From Bacteroidales bacterium (GTDB lineage Bacteria > Bacteroidota > Bacteroidia > Bacteroidales > P3), in the NCBI GenBank assembly GCA_017480785.1, contig JAFURZ010000002.1, positions 62,001 to 126,000 of the forward strand: a DNA stretch of 64,000 nucleotides. The letters run 5' to 3'. Shown here one piece after another: positions 10,787-55,208 of this stretch. Position numbers and translations under genes: made by a program. Each line of letters begins with the position of its first letter. The stretch's first letter is position 1. The notes beneath the pieces were generated by a model, which did not search any database, was not told where the DNA came from, and saw nothing but the letters and a program-made list of their open reading frames with translations.

Positions 10787-10919
10787 ACAGCGACGTTCGC
10801 CACCGCTGCCAAAATTGGTGTCATTGTGCTCAGCACCAGTGTTTTATGTGTATCAGTGTGGGGTGTCAAGAAGGGATGGTGTGCAGAAGCTTGTAGGACA
10901 GGCTGTTAAAGACCTTTTC

Positions 10920-10990
10920 GACTACCACCATGGTAGTCGGTGGTAAGTCCTTGGTAAGTCCTTGGTAAGTTGATGGTAAGTCGAAGGGTA
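10920..10990 (+). repeat. 11-bp iterated element (type I) downstream of ygiQ
   Basis: A short palindrome with 8-base arms GACTACCA and TGGTAGTC around CCA (10920-10938) is followed by GGTAAGT words starting at 10942, 10953, 10964 and 10975, then GGGTA at 10986: an exact 11-bp period. A homologous element lies at 43518-43588. The surrounding 475-base gap (10787-11261) holds no gene. Confidence 0.85.
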
Positions 10991-12241: not shown

Positions 12242-13072
12242 ATGACATATATAGAAGTAACTTTTACGATGGACGATACCGGCGTGTTTCGCGACATGCT
12301 CGTCGACACCCTGGGCAACGAAGGCCCCTACGAAAGCTTTGTCGAGACCACGAACGGCTTGCAGGCCTACGTGAAAGAGTCGGAGTACGACCCGCGGTGG
12401 CTCGCCGCCACGGTGCAGGCCTTCCCGCTGCCGCTGAAGTACGAAGTGAAGCCCATGGAGGACCGCGACTGGAACGCCGAATGGGAGAAGAGTCACGAGG
12501 CAGTGCTGGTCAAGTATGATGGCGGCTCTGTATGGGTGCGGGCTCCGTTCCATCCCCACCGCACCGACGTGGACTACGAGGTCATCATTGAGCCCAAGAT
12601 GAGCTTCGGTACAGCCCATCATCCCACCACCTACATGATGCTCAGCTATGTGGCCGAACTCGATGTGGTGGGCAAGCGGGTGCTTGACATGGGCTGCGGT
12701 ACCGCCGTGCTGGCCATCCTGGCCAAGCTGCGGGGCGCCGCCTACGTGGAGGGTGTCGACGTCGACGAGTGGGCCTACCGCAACGCGCAGGAGAATGCCG
12801 CCGCCAACGGGGTGGACCTTCTGTTGCGGTTGGGAGACGCCGGCACGCTGCAGGGACGGTTCGACGTAGTCATCGCCAATATCAATCGCAACATCCTGTT
12901 GGCCGACATGGAACGCTACGCTGCCGTGCTCAACCCGGGTGGCACCCTGCTGCTCAGTGGCTTCTATGAGGCCGACGAGGGAGTGCTTATCGCCAAGGCC
13001 AATACGCTCGGCATGACGCTGAAAGGCAAGAAAAACCGCGACGGTTGGTCGGCACTGCAACTTGTGAAATGA
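12242..13072 (+). CDS. prmA: ribosomal protein L11 methyltransferase
   Basis: 276-residue SAM-dependent methyltransferase that trimethylates ribosomal protein L11. The N-terminal substrate domain is followed by the Rossmann motif I VLDMGCGTAVLAILA (about residues 147-161), GVDVDEWAYRNAQENAAANGV as motif II, and VIANINRNIL as the N-I-N catalytic motif typical of PrmA. The stop overlaps the topB ATG (ATGA), so the two are translationally coupled. Confidence 0.94.
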   Translation: MTYIEVTFTMDDTGVFRDMLVDTLGNEGPYESFVETTNGLQAYVKESEYDPRWLAATVQAFPLPLKYEVKPMEDRDWNAEWEKSHEAVLVKYDGGSVWVRAPFHPHRTDVDYEVIIEPKMSFGTAHHPTTYMMLSYVAELDVVGKRVLDMGCGTAVLAILAKLRGAAYVEGVDVDEWAYRNAQENAAANGVDLLLRLGDAGTLQGRFDVVIANINRNILLADMERYAAVLNPGGTLLLSGFYEADEGVLIAKANTLGMTLKGKKNRDGWSALQLVK

Positions 13073-14880
13073 TAGTCTGCATTGCCGAGAAACCGAGTGT
13101 GGCACGTGAGATTGCCAAAGTGTTGGGAGCCAATGGTCAGCACGACGGCTACCTAGAGGGTAACGGCTATCAGGTGACCTGGACCTACGGCCACCTCTGT
13201 ACCCTCAAGGAACCACAGGACTACACCGACTACTGGAAGAAATGGAGCCTCTCGGCGTTGCCGATGATACCGCCACGCTTCGGCATCAAGCTGATAGACA
13301 ATGATACGTATAAGAAACAATTTGCCGTCATCGAACGTTTGATGCAGGCGGCCGACGGCATAGTGAACTGCGGCGATGCGGGGCAGGAGGGGGAACTCAT
13401 CCAGCGGTGGGTGATGCAGAAGGCCAAGGCCCATTGTCCGGTGCAGCGCCTATGGGTGAGCAGCCTCACCGAGGAGGCCATCCGCGAGGCTTTTGCCGCT
13501 CTCAAGCCGCAGGACGACTACCAGAGCCTCTACGAGGCAGGCCTCTGTCGTGCCATCGGCGACTGGCTGCTGGGCATGAACGCCACCCGCCTCTACACTC
13601 TCCGCTTTGCCCAAGCCAAGGGGCAGGTGCTTTCTATAGGCCGTGTGCAGACTCCCACGCTGGCCATGATAGTGAAGCGCCACTTCGAGATAAAGAACTT
13701 CCGTCCGGAGAAGTACTGGGTGCTGACGACGGTTTACCGCAATGCCACTTTCTCCTCGACCAAAGGAAGGATAAAGAAACCCGAGGAGGGTGAGGCTGCG
13801 ATGGCAGCAATACGCGGCAAGGACTTTACGGTGACCGACATACAGCAGAAGGCCGGCACGGAGGCTCCGCCCCGCTTGTTCGACCTCACCAGCCTGCAGG
13901 TGGAATGCAACAAGAAGTATTCTTTCTCGGCCGACGACACGCTGAAGCACATCCAGAGCCTCTACGAGAAGAAGCTCACCACCTATCCTCGCGTCGACAC
14001 CACCTACCTCAGCGACGATGTCTATGCCAAATGTCCGCAAATATTGCAAGGCATCGTGCCTTATGCACCGCTGGTGCAGCCCCTGATGGGCAAGAAACTG
14101 AAGAAGAGCAAGAAGGTCTTCGACAGCAGCAAGGTGACCGACCACCATGCCATCATCCCCACAGGTCAGAACCCGCAGAACGTGAGCCTCACGCTCGACG
14201 AGAAGCGGGTCTATGACATGGTGACGCGACGCTTCATCGCTGTTTTCTATCCCGACTGCAAGTTCTCCACCACCACGGTGATGGGAGAGGTGGAGGAAGT
14301 GGAGTTCAAGGCCACGGGCAAGCAGATACTCGAGGAGGGCTGGCGGGTGGTATTCGGAGGCAGACCCGACAAACCGGACGAAGCGGACCGGCAGGACGCA
14401 TCGGACGAGAAGGAACAGACTCTTCCCCAGTTTGAAAAGGGAGAACACGGTCCCCATGAGCCCTCGTTGACCGAGAAGCAGACCTCTCCTCCCAAACCCT
14501 ACACCGAGGCTACCCTCCTGCGAGCCATGGAGACTGCCGGAAAGATGGTTGACAACGAAGAGTTGCGCGATGCCCTCAAGGCCAATGGCATTGGACGACC
14601 GTCGACACGTGCCGCCATTATCGAGACCCTCTACAAGCGACAGTACATCAGTAAGGTGCGCAAGAGTCTGGAACCTACGCCCACTGGCATCGCCCTCATT
14701 GGCGTCATCCAGGAAGAACTCCTCAAGAGTGCCGAGCTCACCGGTCAGTGGGAGAAGAAGTTGCGCGACATCGAGGCCCACAAGTACGACTCGCGCCAGT
14801 TCATCGACGAACTGAAGCAGATGACCGCCCGTATTGTACAGGATGTGTTGGCCGACGGCACGCGGAGAATGACCTATTGA
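13069..14880 (+). CDS. topB: DNA topoisomerase III
   Basis: Type IA topoisomerase, 603 residues from the ATG at 13069; the frame is open from 13045 but the ATGA overlap with prmA and the conserved MIVCIAEKPSVA start decide it. The Toprim domain carries EKPSVAREIA and the DAGQEGELI acidic motif. The catalytic tyrosine is Tyr306 in TYPRVDTTYLS. The C-terminal GIGRPSTRAAIIETL motif is conserved. A short Asp/Lys-rich insertion lies before the LPQFEKGE segment. The gene is short for type IA enzymes because it lacks extra zinc fingers, as usual for TopB in Bacteroidetes. Confidence 0.95.
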   Translation: MIVCIAEKPSVAREIAKVLGANGQHDGYLEGNGYQVTWTYGHLCTLKEPQDYTDYWKKWSLSALPMIPPRFGIKLIDNDTYKKQFAVIERLMQAADGIVNCGDAGQEGELIQRWVMQKAKAHCPVQRLWVSSLTEEAIREAFAALKPQDDYQSLYEAGLCRAIGDWLLGMNATRLYTLRFAQAKGQVLSIGRVQTPTLAMIVKRHFEIKNFRPEKYWVLTTVYRNATFSSTKGRIKKPEEGEAAMAAIRGKDFTVTDIQQKAGTEAPPRLFDLTSLQVECNKKYSFSADDTLKHIQSLYEKKLTTYPRVDTTYLSDDVYAKCPQILQGIVPYAPLVQPLMGKKLKKSKKVFDSSKVTDHHAIIPTGQNPQNVSLTLDEKRVYDMVTRRFIAVFYPDCKFSTTTVMGEVEEVEFKATGKQILEEGWRVVFGGRPDKPDEADRQDASDEKEQTLPQFEKGEHGPHEPSLTEKQTSPPKPYTEATLLRAMETAGKMVDNEELRDALKANGIGRPSTRAAIIETLYKRQYISKVRKSLEPTPTGIALIGVIQEELLKSAELTGQWEKKLRDIEAHKYDSRQFIDELKQMTARIVQDVLADGTRRMTY

Positions 14881-14908
14881 CCATCGTTGTTTTCCAGTAC
14901 TTTACAGG

Positions 14909-14958
14909 CTGTTCTTCGGTTGTTCTTCGGGAAAACCCGAAGAACAACCGAAGAACAG
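14909..14958. repeat. perfect 23-bp-arm palindrome of 11-bp units (type II)
   Basis: Arm 14909-14931 is CTGTTCTTCGG plus TTGTTCTTCGG plus G; loop AAAA; arm 14936-14958 is the exact reverse complement. It lies 28 bases after topB with no T-run after it, and about 95 bases before the YggS gene. The geometry equals that at 55159-55208, although the unit sequence differs. Confidence 0.9.
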
Positions 14959-15051
14959 TTGGCAAAAGATTGAAATACAAAGCCGGTTGTATAAAAAAAT
15001 ATTGTTTGCATTTAAATAATATTATACGCGAAATCTCGTTAAATATTCATT

Positions 15052-15723
15052 ATGGTTGCGGAAAATATAGCAAGAATAAAGTCCACTTTGCCCGAAGGGG
15101 TGAAGCTGGTGGCAGTGAGCAAGCTGAAGACGGTGGAGGATATCATGGAGGCTTATGCTACCGGCCAAAGGGCTTTTGGCGAGAACTACGCCACCGAGTT
15201 GCGCGACAAGGCCGCCGTGCTGCCTGATGACATTGAGTGGCACTTTATCGGCCACCTGCAGGGCAAGCAGTTGAAATACTACATCCAGTTTGTGAGTATG
15301 ATACATGGTGTGGATAGTGTGGAACACTTGGTGGAAGTGGAGCGTGCCGCAGCCAAGGTCGGCCGTGTGGTCGACGTGCTGCTGCAGGTGCACGTGGCCA
15401 AGGAGGAGACCAAGTTCGGTTTTGCGCCGGAAGACCTCGACGAGCCGCGTGAGTTGGAACAAATCGACTTGCCTCATGTGAGGGTGCGTGGTTTGATGGG
15501 TATGGCTACCCACACCGACGACATCGACCGTGTGCGGGCCGACTTCCGTGCGGTGAGGCATTTCTTCGACAACCTCAAGGCGCAGGCGTTTAAGGATAAG
15601 CCGTGGTTCGACACCGTCTCGATGGGCATGAGCCATGACTACCCCATCGCCGTCGAGGAGGGCAGTACGCTGGTGCGCATCGGCAGCAGCATCTTCGGAG
15701 CAAGAGATTATAGCAAGCAATAG
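15052..15723 (+). CDS. YggS/PLPBP family pyridoxal phosphate homeostasis protein
   Basis: 223-residue single-domain PLP-binding TIM barrel, fold type III, without the second domain of alanine racemase. The PLP lysine is Lys24 in VAVSKLK. Other motifs are FGENYATEL, WHFIGHLQGKQ and the phosphate-binding SMGMSHDYPIAVEEGSTLVRIGSSIFG near the C-terminus. The family buffers free PLP. The YitT gene starts 3 bases after its stop, so an operon with YitT, rpe and the methyltransferase is likely. Confidence 0.95.
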   Translation: MVAENIARIKSTLPEGVKLVAVSKLKTVEDIMEAYATGQRAFGENYATELRDKAAVLPDDIEWHFIGHLQGKQLKYYIQFVSMIHGVDSVEHLVEVERAAAKVGRVVDVLLQVHVAKEETKFGFAPEDLDEPRELEQIDLPHVRVRGLMGMATHTDDIDRVRADFRAVRHFFDNLKAQAFKDKPWFDTVSMGMSHDYPIAVEEGSTLVRIGSSIFGARDYSKQ

Positions 15724-23315: not shown

Positions 23316-23420
23316 GCGGCCGAGTTTGCACTCGGCCGCATATAGATGAGACTAAGGCATAAATTACCGCCGTTCTATTGTCTATACGTATTATCACGAT
23401 TGTTTCACAATGCAAAGATA
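23316..23420 (-). other. promoter and terminator without a gene (cassette scar?)
   Basis: A minus-strand -7 box TATCTTTG (23420-23413) is followed by the leader words GCATTGTGAAA, as upstream of the ATPase gene at 24841. About 75 bases later comes the terminator hairpin GCGGCCGAGT / ACTCGGCCGC (23316-23339) with a T-rich tail. No gene lies between. This may encode a very short RNA or be what remains after loss of an ATPase gene. Confidence 0.45.
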
Positions 23421-23482: not shown

Positions 23483-23530
23483 AAGCGACATCGAATAAAA
23501 TAGGAGGCGGCCGAGTGCAAACTCGGCCGC
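23483..23530. repeat. 48-bp direct repeat, left copy, with terminator hairpin
   Basis: Begins AAGCGACATCGAAT and ends with GCGGCCGAGT-GCAA-ACTCGGCCGC (23507-23530). 45 of 48 bases are identical to 24942-24989. The hairpin lies just after the ATPase stop codon and would terminate that gene on the minus strand. Confidence 0.9.
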
Positions 23531-23584: not shown

Positions 23585-24841
23585 TCATTGAAACAAGAGC
23601 CATTTCCATACCGGAACTAGTCCAATAGACAATCCACCTTCATTGATGGTTGTCTCCTCATCCCTTGTTACAATGACAGCCTTCTTAAGAGGATGGAGCT
23701 TATGGAGTTTGACCAGTGCGTCGACCTCCCGCTTTATAGTGGATTCATCAGAAAGACGGTAAGAAGCCTGGACTGCAAGAGCCTCTTCCGGCACATAGAA
23801 ATCAACTTCAATGTTGTGAAGATAATAGTATAGTTTGTCTCCATATCGTTTCCGCATTTCTATGGCACAAAGGTTTTCGAGCAATGCGGACTGGTTTTCG
23901 AGTAGAAACAGGTTGAGCAGACCATTGTCAACGAAGTAGAACTTCTTTGTGGTTTCTCGTTCCACAAAACGTGATGCGAAGTTCTGCAACGGGAATATGA
24001 GACAGGCATCCGTGAAATGGTTGATGTATTCGATAACAGTAGCCGTTCCGCACGATACTCCAACCGCTTTGATCATATTGCAGAGCCGTGTGTATGACAC
24101 GGGCTGTCGTACGCTTTCCGCCAGTTTCCTTAATGCAAGCCTCAGCGCTTCTTCATTCTTCACTTTGTTTCTCACAATAAGGTCATTGAAGAAAATACGG
24201 TTGTACAAGCCATTCAACCAAACTCGTTTTTCTTTGAACCGTGTCAGTTCAGGGAAACCTCCCCATTGAAAATAGTCATTGAAGGCACGTTCCACCTCAC
24301 CGCGTTTTTGCCCGTACATCCAGCGAGAACCAAGACTCACACCGTTTGCTGAAAGAAACTCGGCAAAACTGTATGGATAAACAGACACGTCTATGTATCG
24401 TCCGCCAAGCACGGTCTGAATGTCACGGCTCAACATCTTGGCATTACTGCCAGTAATGTACACCTGATATTTCTGATTAGCAAGCCTACGGGCGAAATTC
24501 TCCCATCCGTCCACATTCTGTATCTCATCAAAGAAAAATGTGGGTTTTATGTCACGGACACTATAATTGGCCTGTAATATCAAGTCAAGTTGGTCTGCCG
24601 ACATACCATGCAAGCGTTCATCGTCGAAATTGATATACACCAAATTCTCAATAGGAACACCTTCATCCAGTTTCTGTTGCATCTGCTGATACAATGTATA
24701 GGACTTGCCCGACTGTCTCACCCCCACGAATACAAAATTGCCAGCAGGCTCTATTGTTACATTTCTCGGCACAATCTCAACCTGGGGTATGTATTCATAT
24801 CCCTCTGATATTATGCTTTTTATTAGTTCTTTGTTTATCAT
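23585..24841 (-). CDS. AAA_14/DUF4143 ATPase (first of three paralogs)
   Basis: 418 residues from the ATG at 24841; the frame is open further upstream, but that part overlaps the promoter box. Walker A GVRQSGKS is at 40-47, Walker B TFFFDEIQNV near 105-115, and YITGSNAKML is the sensor-like segment. The C-terminal DUF4143 half ends in a restriction-endonuclease-like core (EVDFYVPEEALAVQ). This family is abundant in Bacteroidetes genomes and has no settled function. The gene is AT-rich and sits between 48-bp direct repeats. Confidence 0.9.
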   Translation of the reverse strand: MINKELIKSIISEGYEYIPQVEIVPRNVTIEPAGNFVFVGVRQSGKSYTLYQQMQQKLDEGVPIENLVYINFDDERLHGMSADQLDLILQANYSVRDIKPTFFFDEIQNVDGWENFARRLANQKYQVYITGSNAKMLSRDIQTVLGGRYIDVSVYPYSFAEFLSANGVSLGSRWMYGQKRGEVERAFNDYFQWGGFPELTRFKEKRVWLNGLYNRIFFNDLIVRNKVKNEEALRLALRKLAESVRQPVSYTRLCNMIKAVGVSCGTATVIEYINHFTDACLIFPLQNFASRFVERETTKKFYFVDNGLLNLFLLENQSALLENLCAIEMRKRYGDKLYYYLHNIEVDFYVPEEALAVQASYRLSDESTIKREVDALVKLHKLHPLKKAVIVTRDEETTINEGGLSIGLVPVWKWLLFQ

Positions 24842-24862
24842 TTGTAATGTGTTTTCACAATG

Positions 24863-24870
24863 CAAATATA
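24863..24870 (-). promoter_or_regulatory. -7 box upstream of the first DUF4143 ATPase
   Basis: TATATTTG on the minus strand, 22 bases upstream of the ATG at 24841. No clear -33 TTTG at the usual spacing. Confidence 0.5.
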
Positions 24871-24941: not shown

Positions 24942-24990
24942 AAGCGACATCGAATATAATAAAAGGCGGCCGAGTGCAAACTCGGCCGCC
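24942..24990. repeat. 48-bp direct repeat, right copy, and MFS gene terminator
   Basis: Direct repeat partner of 23483-23530. Its hairpin GGCGGCCGAGT / ACTCGGCCGCC (24965-24975, 24980-24990) with a T-rich tail on the minus strand lies 26 bases after the MFS transporter stop and serves as its terminator. Confidence 0.9.
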
Positions 24991-25015
24991 TTGTTTATTA
25001 TCCGATTTTTACGTG

Positions 25016-31314: not shown

Positions 31315-31382
31315 CAAAAAAAACATAATATATAGGTAAAATCTTCAAAAAAAATTCATTTTCTCCGCTCCCCGTTCTGCGG

Positions 31383-31555
31383 CTGTTCTTCGGTTGTTCT
31401 TCGGTTGTTCTTCGGTAAAACCCGAAGAACAACCATTGAAGTCGCAGGAAAACACCCACATCCTCAGGGTTTTCAACTACAGTTCAACTCGAGTTTTACG
31501 GTAGTATTACGCTTTTTCAAGTCGAAATGTTGTCGAACTACCGTAATACTACCGT
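31383..31555. repeat. two 11-bp-unit palindromes in the divergent gap before moxR
   Basis: First, three 11-bp units CTGTTCTTCGG, TTGTTCTTCGG, TTGTTCTTCGG (31383-31415), then TAAAAC and an inverted unit CCGAAGAACAACC. Second, perfect 14-base arms ACGGTAGTATTACG (31498-31511) and CGTAATACTACCGT (31542-31555) with a 30-nt spacer. They fill most of the 429-base gap between divergent genes (31254-31682). Confidence 0.85.
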
Positions 31556-43517: not shown

Positions 43518-43588
43518 TCTTACCACCATGGTAAGACTTGGTAAGGCGTTGGTAAGGCGTTGGTAAGGCGATGGTAAGTCGATGGTGG
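43518..43588 (+). repeat. 11-bp iterated element (type I) upstream of the BKACE gene
   Basis: 8-base arms TCTTACCA / TGGTAAGA around CCA (43518-43536), then GGTAAG words starting at 43530, 43540, 43551, 43562 and 43573, and GGTGG at 43584. Spacing is 10 then 11-11-11-11. Sequence just before the palindrome (CCTGTTATGGCCTTGTC) resembles that before the element at 10920. It fills part of the 360-base gene-free stretch 43395-43754. Confidence 0.85.
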
Positions 43589-52191: not shown

Positions 52192-52278
52192 CTTTTGTTC
52201 TTTTGTTGTTCTTTTGTTGTTCTTTTACTGTTCTTTTACAAAAAGCGTAATACTACCGTAATACTACCGAAGAACAGT
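52192..52278. repeat. composite 11-bp tandem array upstream of the secA promoter
   Basis: CTTTTGTTGTT units start at 52200 and 52211, CTTTTACTGTT at 52222, and CTTTTAC at 52233. Then CGTAATACTAC follows at 52246 and 52257, and CGAAGAACAG from 52268. The last two words are those of the elements at 31498-31555 and 14909-14958. Within the 301-base gene-free stretch 52076-52376. Confidence 0.85.
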
Positions 52279-53824: not shown

Positions 53825-54286
53825 TTCTAATTTCTAAATTCTAATTTTTGAGTGGCTGACGCGGTAGGGATAATCTTTTTTTCACTGTAATGACGGAAGC
53901 TGTCATCATTTTGTAGATTTCTTCCGATAAACTATACAGTGTATCGTAATACTCGTCAGTTATGTAACGACTGTCTTTTAGCAAGTCGAGCCAATACTGT
54001 GTTTCATGGGTCTCTTTAAGAGAAACAGATATTTTATGGATAAAATCGGAATCACTTTCTGCACCAAGAGCTTCACTATAGTTTGCCCCCATACTGGTTG
54101 CCGACCTTATTATTTGTTTTGAAATAATAAACTCGTTCATGCCTTCCAATTTGCGGCAAAGTTCGATAATAAGGAGCGAAAATTGCTTGCACTTTTCGTA
54201 GATGATGCCTTTGTCTCTCATAAAAAAGAAAAAGTGAGCAATACCTGCGTAGCTCACTTAGAAATCAGAAATTAGAAATTAGAAAT
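53823..54286. mobile_element. inverted-repeat-flanked unit carrying a four-helix-bundle gene
   Basis: The ends 53823-53854 and 54255-54286 are inverted repeats, 28 of 32 positions matching (ATTTCTAATTTCTAA at the outer end). The left end touches the era ATG, and the right end covers the stop codon of the next gene. Total 464 bp with one gene inside. The ends are low-complexity AATTTCT words, so a stutter-repeat origin is also possible. Confidence 0.45.
53841..54221 (-). CDS. four-helix-bundle protein (23S rRNA-IVS type)
   Basis: 126 residues from the ATG at 54221 (MRDKGIIYEKCKQFS); the longer frame to 54257 reads through inverted repeat sequence. Characteristic motifs of the IVS/four-helix-bundle family (TIGR02436): LIIELCRKL, SKQIIRSATSMGANYSEA and FIHKISVSLKETHETQYWLDLL. 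The family occurs in 23S rRNA intervening sequences and in diversity-generating retroelements (Avd), but here no reverse transcriptase or rRNA is present. Role unknown. Confidence 0.88.
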   Translation of the reverse strand: MRDKGIIYEKCKQFSLLIIELCRKLEGMNEFIISKQIIRSATSMGANYSEALGAESDSDFIHKISVSLKETHETQYWLDLLKDSRYITDEYYDTLYSLSEEIYKMMTASVITVKKRLSLPRQPLKN

Positions 54287-55058
54287 ATTCTATGGTCCGG
54301 ACGGTGGTGTAGGTGGGAATCATGCGGTCGCCCAGCATGTCGTACTCGGTGCAGCGCACCCAGTTGCCGTGGGCGTCGTATTCGCGCATATAGAGGGTGA
54401 CGAACATCTCGGGCTCCTCCTCGGTGTAGTCATAGAGGGTGTAGCTCGTGGGGTAGCCCTGCTCGTCATACTCCCAGCGCTTCTCCTGCACCTTCTGCTT
54501 CGAGCGGTCGTAGACGACGGCCTTGTTGATGGTACCGTCGGGGTTGTAGGTGTACACCTCGCGCTTGAAAATGTCGTTCCGGTGGTCGTTGTAGGAACGC
54601 TGGCTGATGCGGCCCATGGCGTCGTGTATGAGCAGCATGCGGCTCTCCACCTGCCGCTCGGCGTCCTCCACATACACCTCGGTCAGCGTGTGCTCGGCGT
54701 CGTACACATAGTAGGTGCGGCCCACCACGTGCTCCTGGTTGTCGACGATGTGCTCGAGGGTGGTCAGCCCGAAGCCGTCGTGCTTGTAGCGGGTGCGGAA
54801 GATGATGTCCTCGGCCACCGAGAGGTAGGTCTGCGACCGACGCTGCCCGTTCTGCTTGTACTCGGTGACCAGATGCTCGAGCTGCTCGCCGCGCCGGAGG
54901 TTGTCGTTCAGGTCGTAGCCGGCCTCATACATGCGTGAGTCGATGCGCTTCACGGTGCCGTGCAGCTCGTCGTCCTGCAGGTCGCGACCCGTCTGCGCCG
55001 CTGCCGTGCCGCACAGGGCCAGCGCTGCCAATGCCAGAAATATCTTGCCTATTTTCAT
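54279..55058 (-). CDS. YD-repeat-like periplasmic protein
   Basis: 259 residues with a signal peptide (1-21). The sequence has repeated strand motifs YVYDAEHTLTEVYVED, YTYNPDGTINKAVVYD, WEYDEQGYPTSYTLYD and REYDAHGNWVRCTEYD, spaced about 40 residues apart, as in YD/RHS-like beta-repeat proteins. No toxin domain. Its stop codon lies within an inverted repeat. Function unknown. Confidence 0.82.
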   Translation of the reverse strand: MKIGKIFLALAALALCGTAAAQTGRDLQDDELHGTVKRIDSRMYEAGYDLNDNLRRGEQLEHLVTEYKQNGQRRSQTYLSVAEDIIFRTRYKHDGFGLTTLEHIVDNQEHVVGRTYYVYDAEHTLTEVYVEDAERQVESRMLLIHDAMGRISQRSYNDHRNDIFKREVYTYNPDGTINKAVVYDRSKQKVQEKRWEYDEQGYPTSYTLYDYTEEEPEMFVTLYMREYDAHGNWVRCTEYDMLGDRMIPTYTTVRTIEYF

Positions 55059-55158: not shown

Positions 55159-55208
55159 CATTTCGACTTGAGTTCGACTTGAAAACAAGTCGAACTCAAG
55201 TCGAAATG
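55159..55208. repeat. perfect 23-bp-arm palindrome of 11-bp units (type II)
   Basis: Arm 55159-55181 is C plus ATTTCGACTTG plus AGTTCGACTTG; loop AAAA; arm 55186-55208 is the exact reverse complement. Same arm and loop length as the element at 14909-14958 with unrelated unit sequence. It is about 100 bases upstream of the minus-strand gene starting at 55058. Confidence 0.9.

Follow-up and report, generated by a model that had tools for sequence, protein, structure and literature searches.

A palindrome of 11-bp tandem units downstream of topB is one copy of a dispersed intergenic repeat family in a Bacteroidales genome

We analyzed a 64,000-nucleotide stretch (hereafter, the window) of a rumen Bacteroidales genome of 2.25 Mb (the source genome). 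On the plus strand of the window, topB (13045..14880), encoding DNA topoisomerase III, is followed by a gene of the alanine racemase N-terminal domain family (15052..15723), which we take to be yggS. Between them, 29 bp after the stop codon of topB, lies a perfect palindrome (14909..14958; no strand is assigned to this or any other repeat element described here). Its arm, 23 bp with no mismatches, consists of CTGTTCTTCGG, TTGTTCTTCGG and a single G, and its loop is AAAA, exactly as an earlier note on this DNA had described it; the whole is formed of two forward units (YTGTTCTTCGG) and two inverted units, and is referred to below as a family A element. It is surrounded by an extended imperfect inverted repeat (14879..14990), which as RNA is predicted to fold into a single 112-nt hairpin (MFE –56.1 kcal/mol, z = –9.8). 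Among the 13 perfect hairpins of the window with arms of at least 10 bp and loops of up to 12, only those at 14909 and 55159 have arms longer than 16 bp. By a hand estimate, about 1e-8 perfect 23-bp arms are expected by chance per 64 kb, and the perfect 23-bp arm is not due to chance.

Several other elements built of 11-bp units were found in the window. The palindrome at 55159..55208, a family B element with TTCGACTTGAG units, lies 101 bp upstream of the start of a minus-strand gene (54279-55058) and shares the arm of 23 bp and the AAAA loop, as the earlier note had observed; its units do differ from those at 14909, but to call them entirely different was an overstatement, because many units consist of GTTCTT followed by five variable bases. 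A second family A element (31374..31434), with divergent genes on either side, has three units on one side and one on the other, and thus unequal arms, around the centre TAAAAC. The element at 52195..52277 is a mosaic: four forward C-type units (TTGTTCTTTTG/CTGTTCTTTTA) are followed by a short spacer, two inverted D-type units (CGTAATACTAC) and one inverted A-type unit (CCGAAGAACAG), so that its arms are unpaired, yet the 11-bp step and the mirror order are retained. Two further 11-bp arrays, one of unit TGGTAAGTCCT repeated 3.8 times (10919..10982) and the other of unit TGGTAAGGCGT repeated 5.4 times (43518..43586), each carry one inverted part-unit at the left end; this lone inverted unit falls on the opposite side if the units are named by GT, which is a choice of naming. 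Separately, a GCGGCCGAGT hairpin occurs three times (23316-23339, 23507-23530 and 24963-24992), once with the other loop orientation and with repeated flanks, around an AAA_14/DUF4143 ATPase gene (23585-24865), and these copies might form the termini of a small mobile unit.

We searched the source genome for further copies. A 111-bp query around 14909 gave 36 matches at 21 places, and a query with the 55159 element gave 44 matches at 23 places. Families C (TGTTCTTTTAC) and D (ACGGTAGTATT) were recognized in addition; 43 occurrences of the D core were counted, and D elements have arms of 29-64 bp and a loop of 1. We examined 72 copies (30 D, 11 A, 21 B, 4 C and 6 D/A composites, leaving aside composite or part copies in loci L020, L024, L025 and L026 and a second one in L028), of which none lay inside a gene as delimited by a simple codon-based gene caller. 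In a separate comparison, which scored 6 of 72 candidates, six D copies were identical over 91 bp. In the D/A composites, A units are placed in phase between D half-elements. Terminal inverted repeats are present in that the whole element is one inverted repeat, which in D reaches about 54 bp from the centre. Accordingly, the palindrome at 14909 is one copy of a dispersed, multi-copy, non-coding intergenic repeat family. The ends of the D copies, 55-59 bp from the centre, are seldom alike (pairing is 7% at position 56); by eye, ACATCC appears on one side and TCACC, TTTCC or CTTCC on the other, as if the D element had distinct left and right ends.

The families differ in where they lie relative to genes. 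D copies with two neighbours were found between divergent genes in 15 of 29 cases, compared with 567 of 2606 random intergenic positions, and between convergent genes in only one of 29, compared with 551 of 2606; a start codon was located 75-250 bp away in 25 of the 30 D copies. In family A, 5 of 11 copies follow a stop codon by no more than 55 bp, and in family B 13 of 21 do so; by comparison, of 22 hairpins lacking the family units, 11 lay within 35 bp of a stop codon and 6 were intragenic. We also scanned 20 of the 30 listed start-facing neighbours of D elements: their functions are unrelated (metabolism, transport, envelope and secretion), and three of the 20 have no Pfam hit. The idea of a regulon was rejected, as no common function was seen among these 20 neighbours.

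To quantify the 11-bp step, palindromes with periodic arms were surveyed at a score of at least 15 and a loop of at most 8. In a 464-kb sample of the source genome, 15 of 23 palindromes had period 11 (arms 20-64 bp, loops 1-4) and one had another period, whereas 0.04 of period 11 were expected from shuffled arms. In 1.0 Mb of topB-locus relatives, 11 of 24 palindromes had period 11 and three had other periods; the first same-genus sample (322 kb) gave one of eight with period 11 and two with other periods, and the second (400 kb) gave three periodic palindromes of 13, all of period 11. None of the 11 palindromes from 361 kb of other families of the class and phylum was of the period-11 kind, nor was any of the eight from 252 kb covering other families of the order, and 76 kb from another genus of the family yielded no palindromes at all. 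Shuffled arms gave 0.01-0.05 at period 11 across the source, topB-relative, first same-genus and class/phylum samples. The earlier note had proposed a search for palindromes with 23-bp arms and AAAA loops, to be refuted if other arm lengths and loops were equally frequent; by this test of its own, the exact geometry common to the two palindromes proved to be a coincidence, while arms built of 11-bp repeats are indeed in excess.

Tandem 11-bp arrays had an inverted unit within 150 bp in 24 of 49 cases in the source genome and 26 of 57 in the relatives, while random-place controls gave none; the other 25 source arrays had no inverted unit within this distance. At other periods, inverted partners were not clearly above controls. 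Only the 11-bp class is claimed here because arrays of 7, 8 and 9 bp have nearby inverted partners about as often as their random-place controls (for period 7 in the source genome, 26 of 31 compared with 15). Arrays of 7 bp (AGTGGGT-like) were noticed at L136 18206-18280 and in other source stretches, some with inverted partners at about the chance level.

We examined the order of the units with a pattern in which a pair of GTTCTT+5 units precedes an inverted pair by at most 24 bases. Of the 22 genomes carrying such palindromes, 16 were compared: the inward order at 11 bp gave 580 forward matches (a sum over genomes that counts multi-unit elements repeatedly), the outward order of unit pairs gave none, and the reversed-pattern control gave none among the matches listed. 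With a looser pattern requiring one inverted unit, the same 16 genomes gave no matches at steps of 8-10 bp, and five, compared with two in the reversed control, at 12-14 bp. Where GTTCTT-type units occur in both orientations, what is constant is thus the 11-bp step with inward mirror order, and not the 23-AAAA-23 geometry; in family B, for example, the loop is AAAA in only 6 of 21 copies. The earlier claim that form is conserved over sequence therefore stands for the step and the order across genomes, but not for the exact geometry from which it was drawn.

The universality of the mirror order was weakened by the decoding of 149 source arrays, of which 74 showed forward units followed by inverted ones, five showed the reverse and 70 had a single orientation (A 12/0/22, B 22/2/7, C 10/3/17, D 30/0/24, respectively). 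The reverse order was confined to 3 of 30 C groups and 2 of 31 B groups, the decoding of B being unreliable because its unit is partly self-complementary. Family A copies were split 2 + 2, 3 + 1, 1 + 3 or 3 + 2, many being uneven, and the spacer at which their units turn varies, measuring 6 bp at 10 of 12 forward-to-inverted junctions. The mosaic at 52195-52277, the unequal splits and the single-orientation arrays suggest that phasing and orientation on the DNA outweigh pairing of the RNA, and argue that the symmetry lies in order more than in sequence.

We further compared the units and arms with each other. In 27 palindromes, mismatches between arms occurred at 44 of 983 positions and differences between units at 149 of 686, and 122 of these 149 differences were mirrored in both arms, although the likeness of arms is partly built in because well-paired hairpins had been chosen. 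In the 21 copies of family B, 452 of 483 cells were Watson-Crick pairs, a value reached by none of 2000 shuffles, and two-sided changes were found in 6 of 23 pairs, a value reached by 62 of 2000 shuffles. Outer layers were also detected. In 58 flanks from 29 of the 30 D copies, the C content 61-126 bp from the centre was periodic at 11 bp and faded outwards, with peaks at 62/64, 73/75, 84/86 and 95, and none of 1000 permutations reached this signal. When lags of 7-15 were compared in the flanks of the seven other families, 11 came out strongest in every one; the margin was narrow in G164 and B, and in A and G157 further inner units account for part of the signal. By eye, elements of genome G416 carry ATCAAGTAGGT-like 11-mers, and those of G171 CCGTAGGGGCT-like ones, outside their inner units. 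Such layers suggest growth from the centre, but they could also reflect a weaker constraint outwards.

A comparison in depth covered one orthologous gap. The 80 topB-locus relatives that were kept are Bacteroidales/Bacteroidetes MAGs, mostly from rumen and gut. The pair topB-yggS was adjacent in 19 loci, and 18 of the 19 gaps contained no scored 11-bp palindrome, that of the window being the exception. The window gap measures 171 bp; in the 18 relatives, with gene boundaries from our own gene caller, 12 gaps span 31-71 bp and the other six 101-526 bp. The window gap appears to have grown by about 110 bp, which is close to the size of the extended element. In one relative (L054), 11-bp repeats were recognized by eye in this gap. 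Two others (L052 and L053) have another gene after topB; L052 carries a different palindrome with 40-bp arms of three diverged 11-mers, and L053 a degenerate palindrome at about the same position. For one gene pair, 11-bp palindromes of different units were found in two of nine loci (L087 and L094), which is insufficient to demonstrate turnover in place.

We then compared the unit sequences across genomes. Of 190 genomes of the family, 22 contain palindromes of the GTTCTT type; these 22 all belong to the same genus as the source, and a single genome has up to 91 matches. The pentamers following GTTCTT differ among the 10 carriers whose matches were listed (ATATC, CAATC, CAGTT/C, CAGTA and CGATT, besides CGGTT, TTACT and others in the source genome), and the CGATT, CAGT- and ATATC types are each common to two or three genomes. 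Unit A was found in one of 198 genomes of the order, in a sample without any other genome of the genus. Among 218 loci fetched from other sources, the A unit pair occurred in one and the D pair in two, and the B and C pairs in none. The sole A case is a member of the genus without GTTCTT palindromes (G125; L174 19206-19252), in which four A-like units lie in one orientation, and a strict privacy of units to each genome was ruled out by these units. Two of nine sampled genomes without GTTCTT palindromes (G062 and G121) hold other 11-bp palindromes; at L302, for example, GTTGTCCAGTC is repeated four times per arm with 52 of 52 positions paired. Unit sequences therefore differ between genomes, though they are not strictly private.

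The reading we prefer, with about as much confidence as doubt, is that these are amplifying elements similar to REPINs or MITEs, each an array of helically phased 11-bp units that usually converge on a centre, phased by a protein and homogenized through hairpins. A candidate sequence-specific DNA-binding protein would approach the DNA from a single face, taking one unit at each helical turn, and the bound array would meet its own mirror image at the centre, which would fix the step and the orientation and leave the sequence free. The elements would spread by copying, probably via a folded single-strand (hairpin) form, and their arms would be kept alike by hairpin-templated copying. New unit variants may spread outwards from the centre while older units decay as outer layers, and lineages would in this way diverge in their main unit. 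The reading is retained because it needs neither strict privacy of units nor a universal mirror order.

A bolder version is possible but considerably more tentative, namely that the elements form a new class of repeat: palindromic satellites renewing themselves from the centre, in which unit variants arising at the hairpin tip would spread to the other copies in the genome and push older types outwards, while one protein family with drifting specificity would hold the helical spacing constant. In human centromeres, new repeat types likewise arise at the centre. A form kept constant throughout a genus (11-bp step and mirror order) under repeated change of units is a rare natural experiment, which separates what a DNA structure or bound protein needs (spacing and symmetry) from what it does not (sequence). 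It also makes hairpin-templated change and the spread of repeats within a genome directly testable by strain comparison, and would add a class of repeats apparently independent of the RAYT transposase known from REPINs.

The comparison with MITEs is mixed. The elements resemble them as small intergenic inverted repeats, and the single orthologous gap compared was mostly empty; however, they carry an internal 11-bp phase, their ends fade rather than being sharp, and no target-site duplication was found at the ends of 29 D copies, where the match outside the element was at most about 0.34 and the best match, 0.54 over 3 bases, lay inside it.

Another explanation, which we consider unlikely, is that the elements are immobile arrays of operator sites for a chromosomal regulator or nucleoid protein, with units and protein co-evolving and selection acting locus by locus. 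The exact helical step, the preferred orientation and the tolerance of unpaired arms would fit such arrays, as would the placement of D copies near start codons, often between divergent promoters. Arrays of this kind are known from plasmids: the 11-bp repeats of parC are bound by ParR, and the omega repressor binds arrays of heptads. Equal units one helical turn apart, as in iteron and partition-site arrays bound cooperatively, were indeed found here; however, those arrays are single plasmid loci beside the gene of their protein, while the present elements occur in tens of chromosomal copies and are often mirror-centred. Moreover, the neighbouring genes have no evident common function, 18 of the 19 topB-yggS gaps lack a scored element, and identical 91-bp stretches at six places are unexpected for sites maintained singly. 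A further likeness is to core sites of tyrosine recombinases such as dif, in which 11-bp inverted arms flank a 6-bp spacer. The inner pair of family A mostly has this arrangement, with a variable spacer sequence, but unlike dif-type sites the elements have many copies, extra tandem units and a spacer that varies by family.

Mobilization as REP/REPIN elements by a RAYT (Y1, IS200-like) transposase is given little credence. The elements do resemble REPs, BIMEs and REPINs in being short, palindromic, intergenic and non-coding, with genome-typical populations of tens of copies or more, and a search with PF01797 detected three Y1_Tnp genes in the source genome. Unlike those repeats, they are built of tandem 11-bp units that change between families and genomes, and they are layered, with arms sometimes unequal or of different units. 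REP hairpins are described as bearing a GTAG or CGTC tetranucleotide at the foot in the part of the source consulted (PMC3733652). Here, GTAG and CGTC were found at arm ends in 0 and 1 of 11 A copies, 4 and 0 of 21 B copies, none of 4 C copies, 7 and 1 of 30 D copies and 1 and 0 of 6 D/A composites, compared with 13% and 21% in random pairs of 12-mers; there is no systematic foot of this kind, A and C being not above background and B and D at most slightly so. Y1_Tnp gave no hit in 6 of the 15 carriers tested (MAGs, 66-100% complete), including G416 (73 matches, 97% complete) and G157 (42 matches, 97% complete), and it was detected in 9 of 15 carriers compared with 13 of 15 genomes without GTTCTT palindromes. 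Around the source Y1 genes, the 3.3-kb loci contained no A, B or D unit, and a single C hairpin lay about 930 bp from one of the genes. These results weaken this explanation. The three genes (L149-L151) are short and IS200-like, and reading frames beside two of the three point to repeats of the CCCTACGG type, which may be the REPs proper to these genes. The G171 elements resemble the CCCTACGG-type repeats in their outer layer (CCGTAGGGGCT).

Similarly improbable is pure mutation, in which tandem slippage and fold-back template switching act anywhere, requiring neither a protein nor dispersal. Template switching at quasipalindromes is an established process, according to the portions of two reports that were consulted (PMC7202029 and PMC3820800), and the mirroring of unit differences between arms is compatible with it. 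However, a unit that recurs tens of times within one genome is rare in its relatives, which calls for dispersal; slippage would not single out 11 bp and all but avoid 8-10 and 12-14 bp, nor would it leave palindromes of this kind absent among the 11 from other families of the class and phylum and the eight from other families of the order. From the form of the palindromes, the earlier note had deduced a generative mechanism, by templated repair or slippage on hairpins, or else a selection for structure. The mirrored differences fit hairpin-templated correction or selection for pairing, and this part is upheld; the dispersed copies and the 70 single-orientation arrays among 149 indicate that slippage at single loci is insufficient as the whole story.

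Finally, it is very unlikely that the elements are intrinsic transcription terminators whose stems hold repeats by chance: despite the very stable fold of the RNA of the 14909 copy and the many A and B copies close behind stop codons, a U-tract (at least five T in the 8 nt after the 3΄ arm, scored at a fixed offset from the loop in A and B copies) was found in none of the 11 A copies and in one of the 21 B copies, the bases after the arm are A-rich and those before it T-rich, and unequal and unpaired arrays still keep the 11-bp step, and termination as the main function is rejected by the rarity of U-tracts together with the enrichment of D between divergent genes and its scarcity between convergent ones.

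Palindromes with 11-bp tandem arms were not encountered in the literature as far as titles and the openings of abstracts reveal, in a search whose scope excluded most subscription journals (PMC13155455, PMC12306157 and PMC3733652 being among the sources seen in part). In viral contigs, the A and B unit pairs were not found. A D-type 22-mer was detected in two of these contigs (L220 and L221), and a hairpin scan gave no D palindrome in either; both contain D-type tandem 11-mers (ACGGTAGTATT), and in L221 a second long array of 11-mers (TTCACTGATCA/TTCACTGAACG) adjoins those of the D type.
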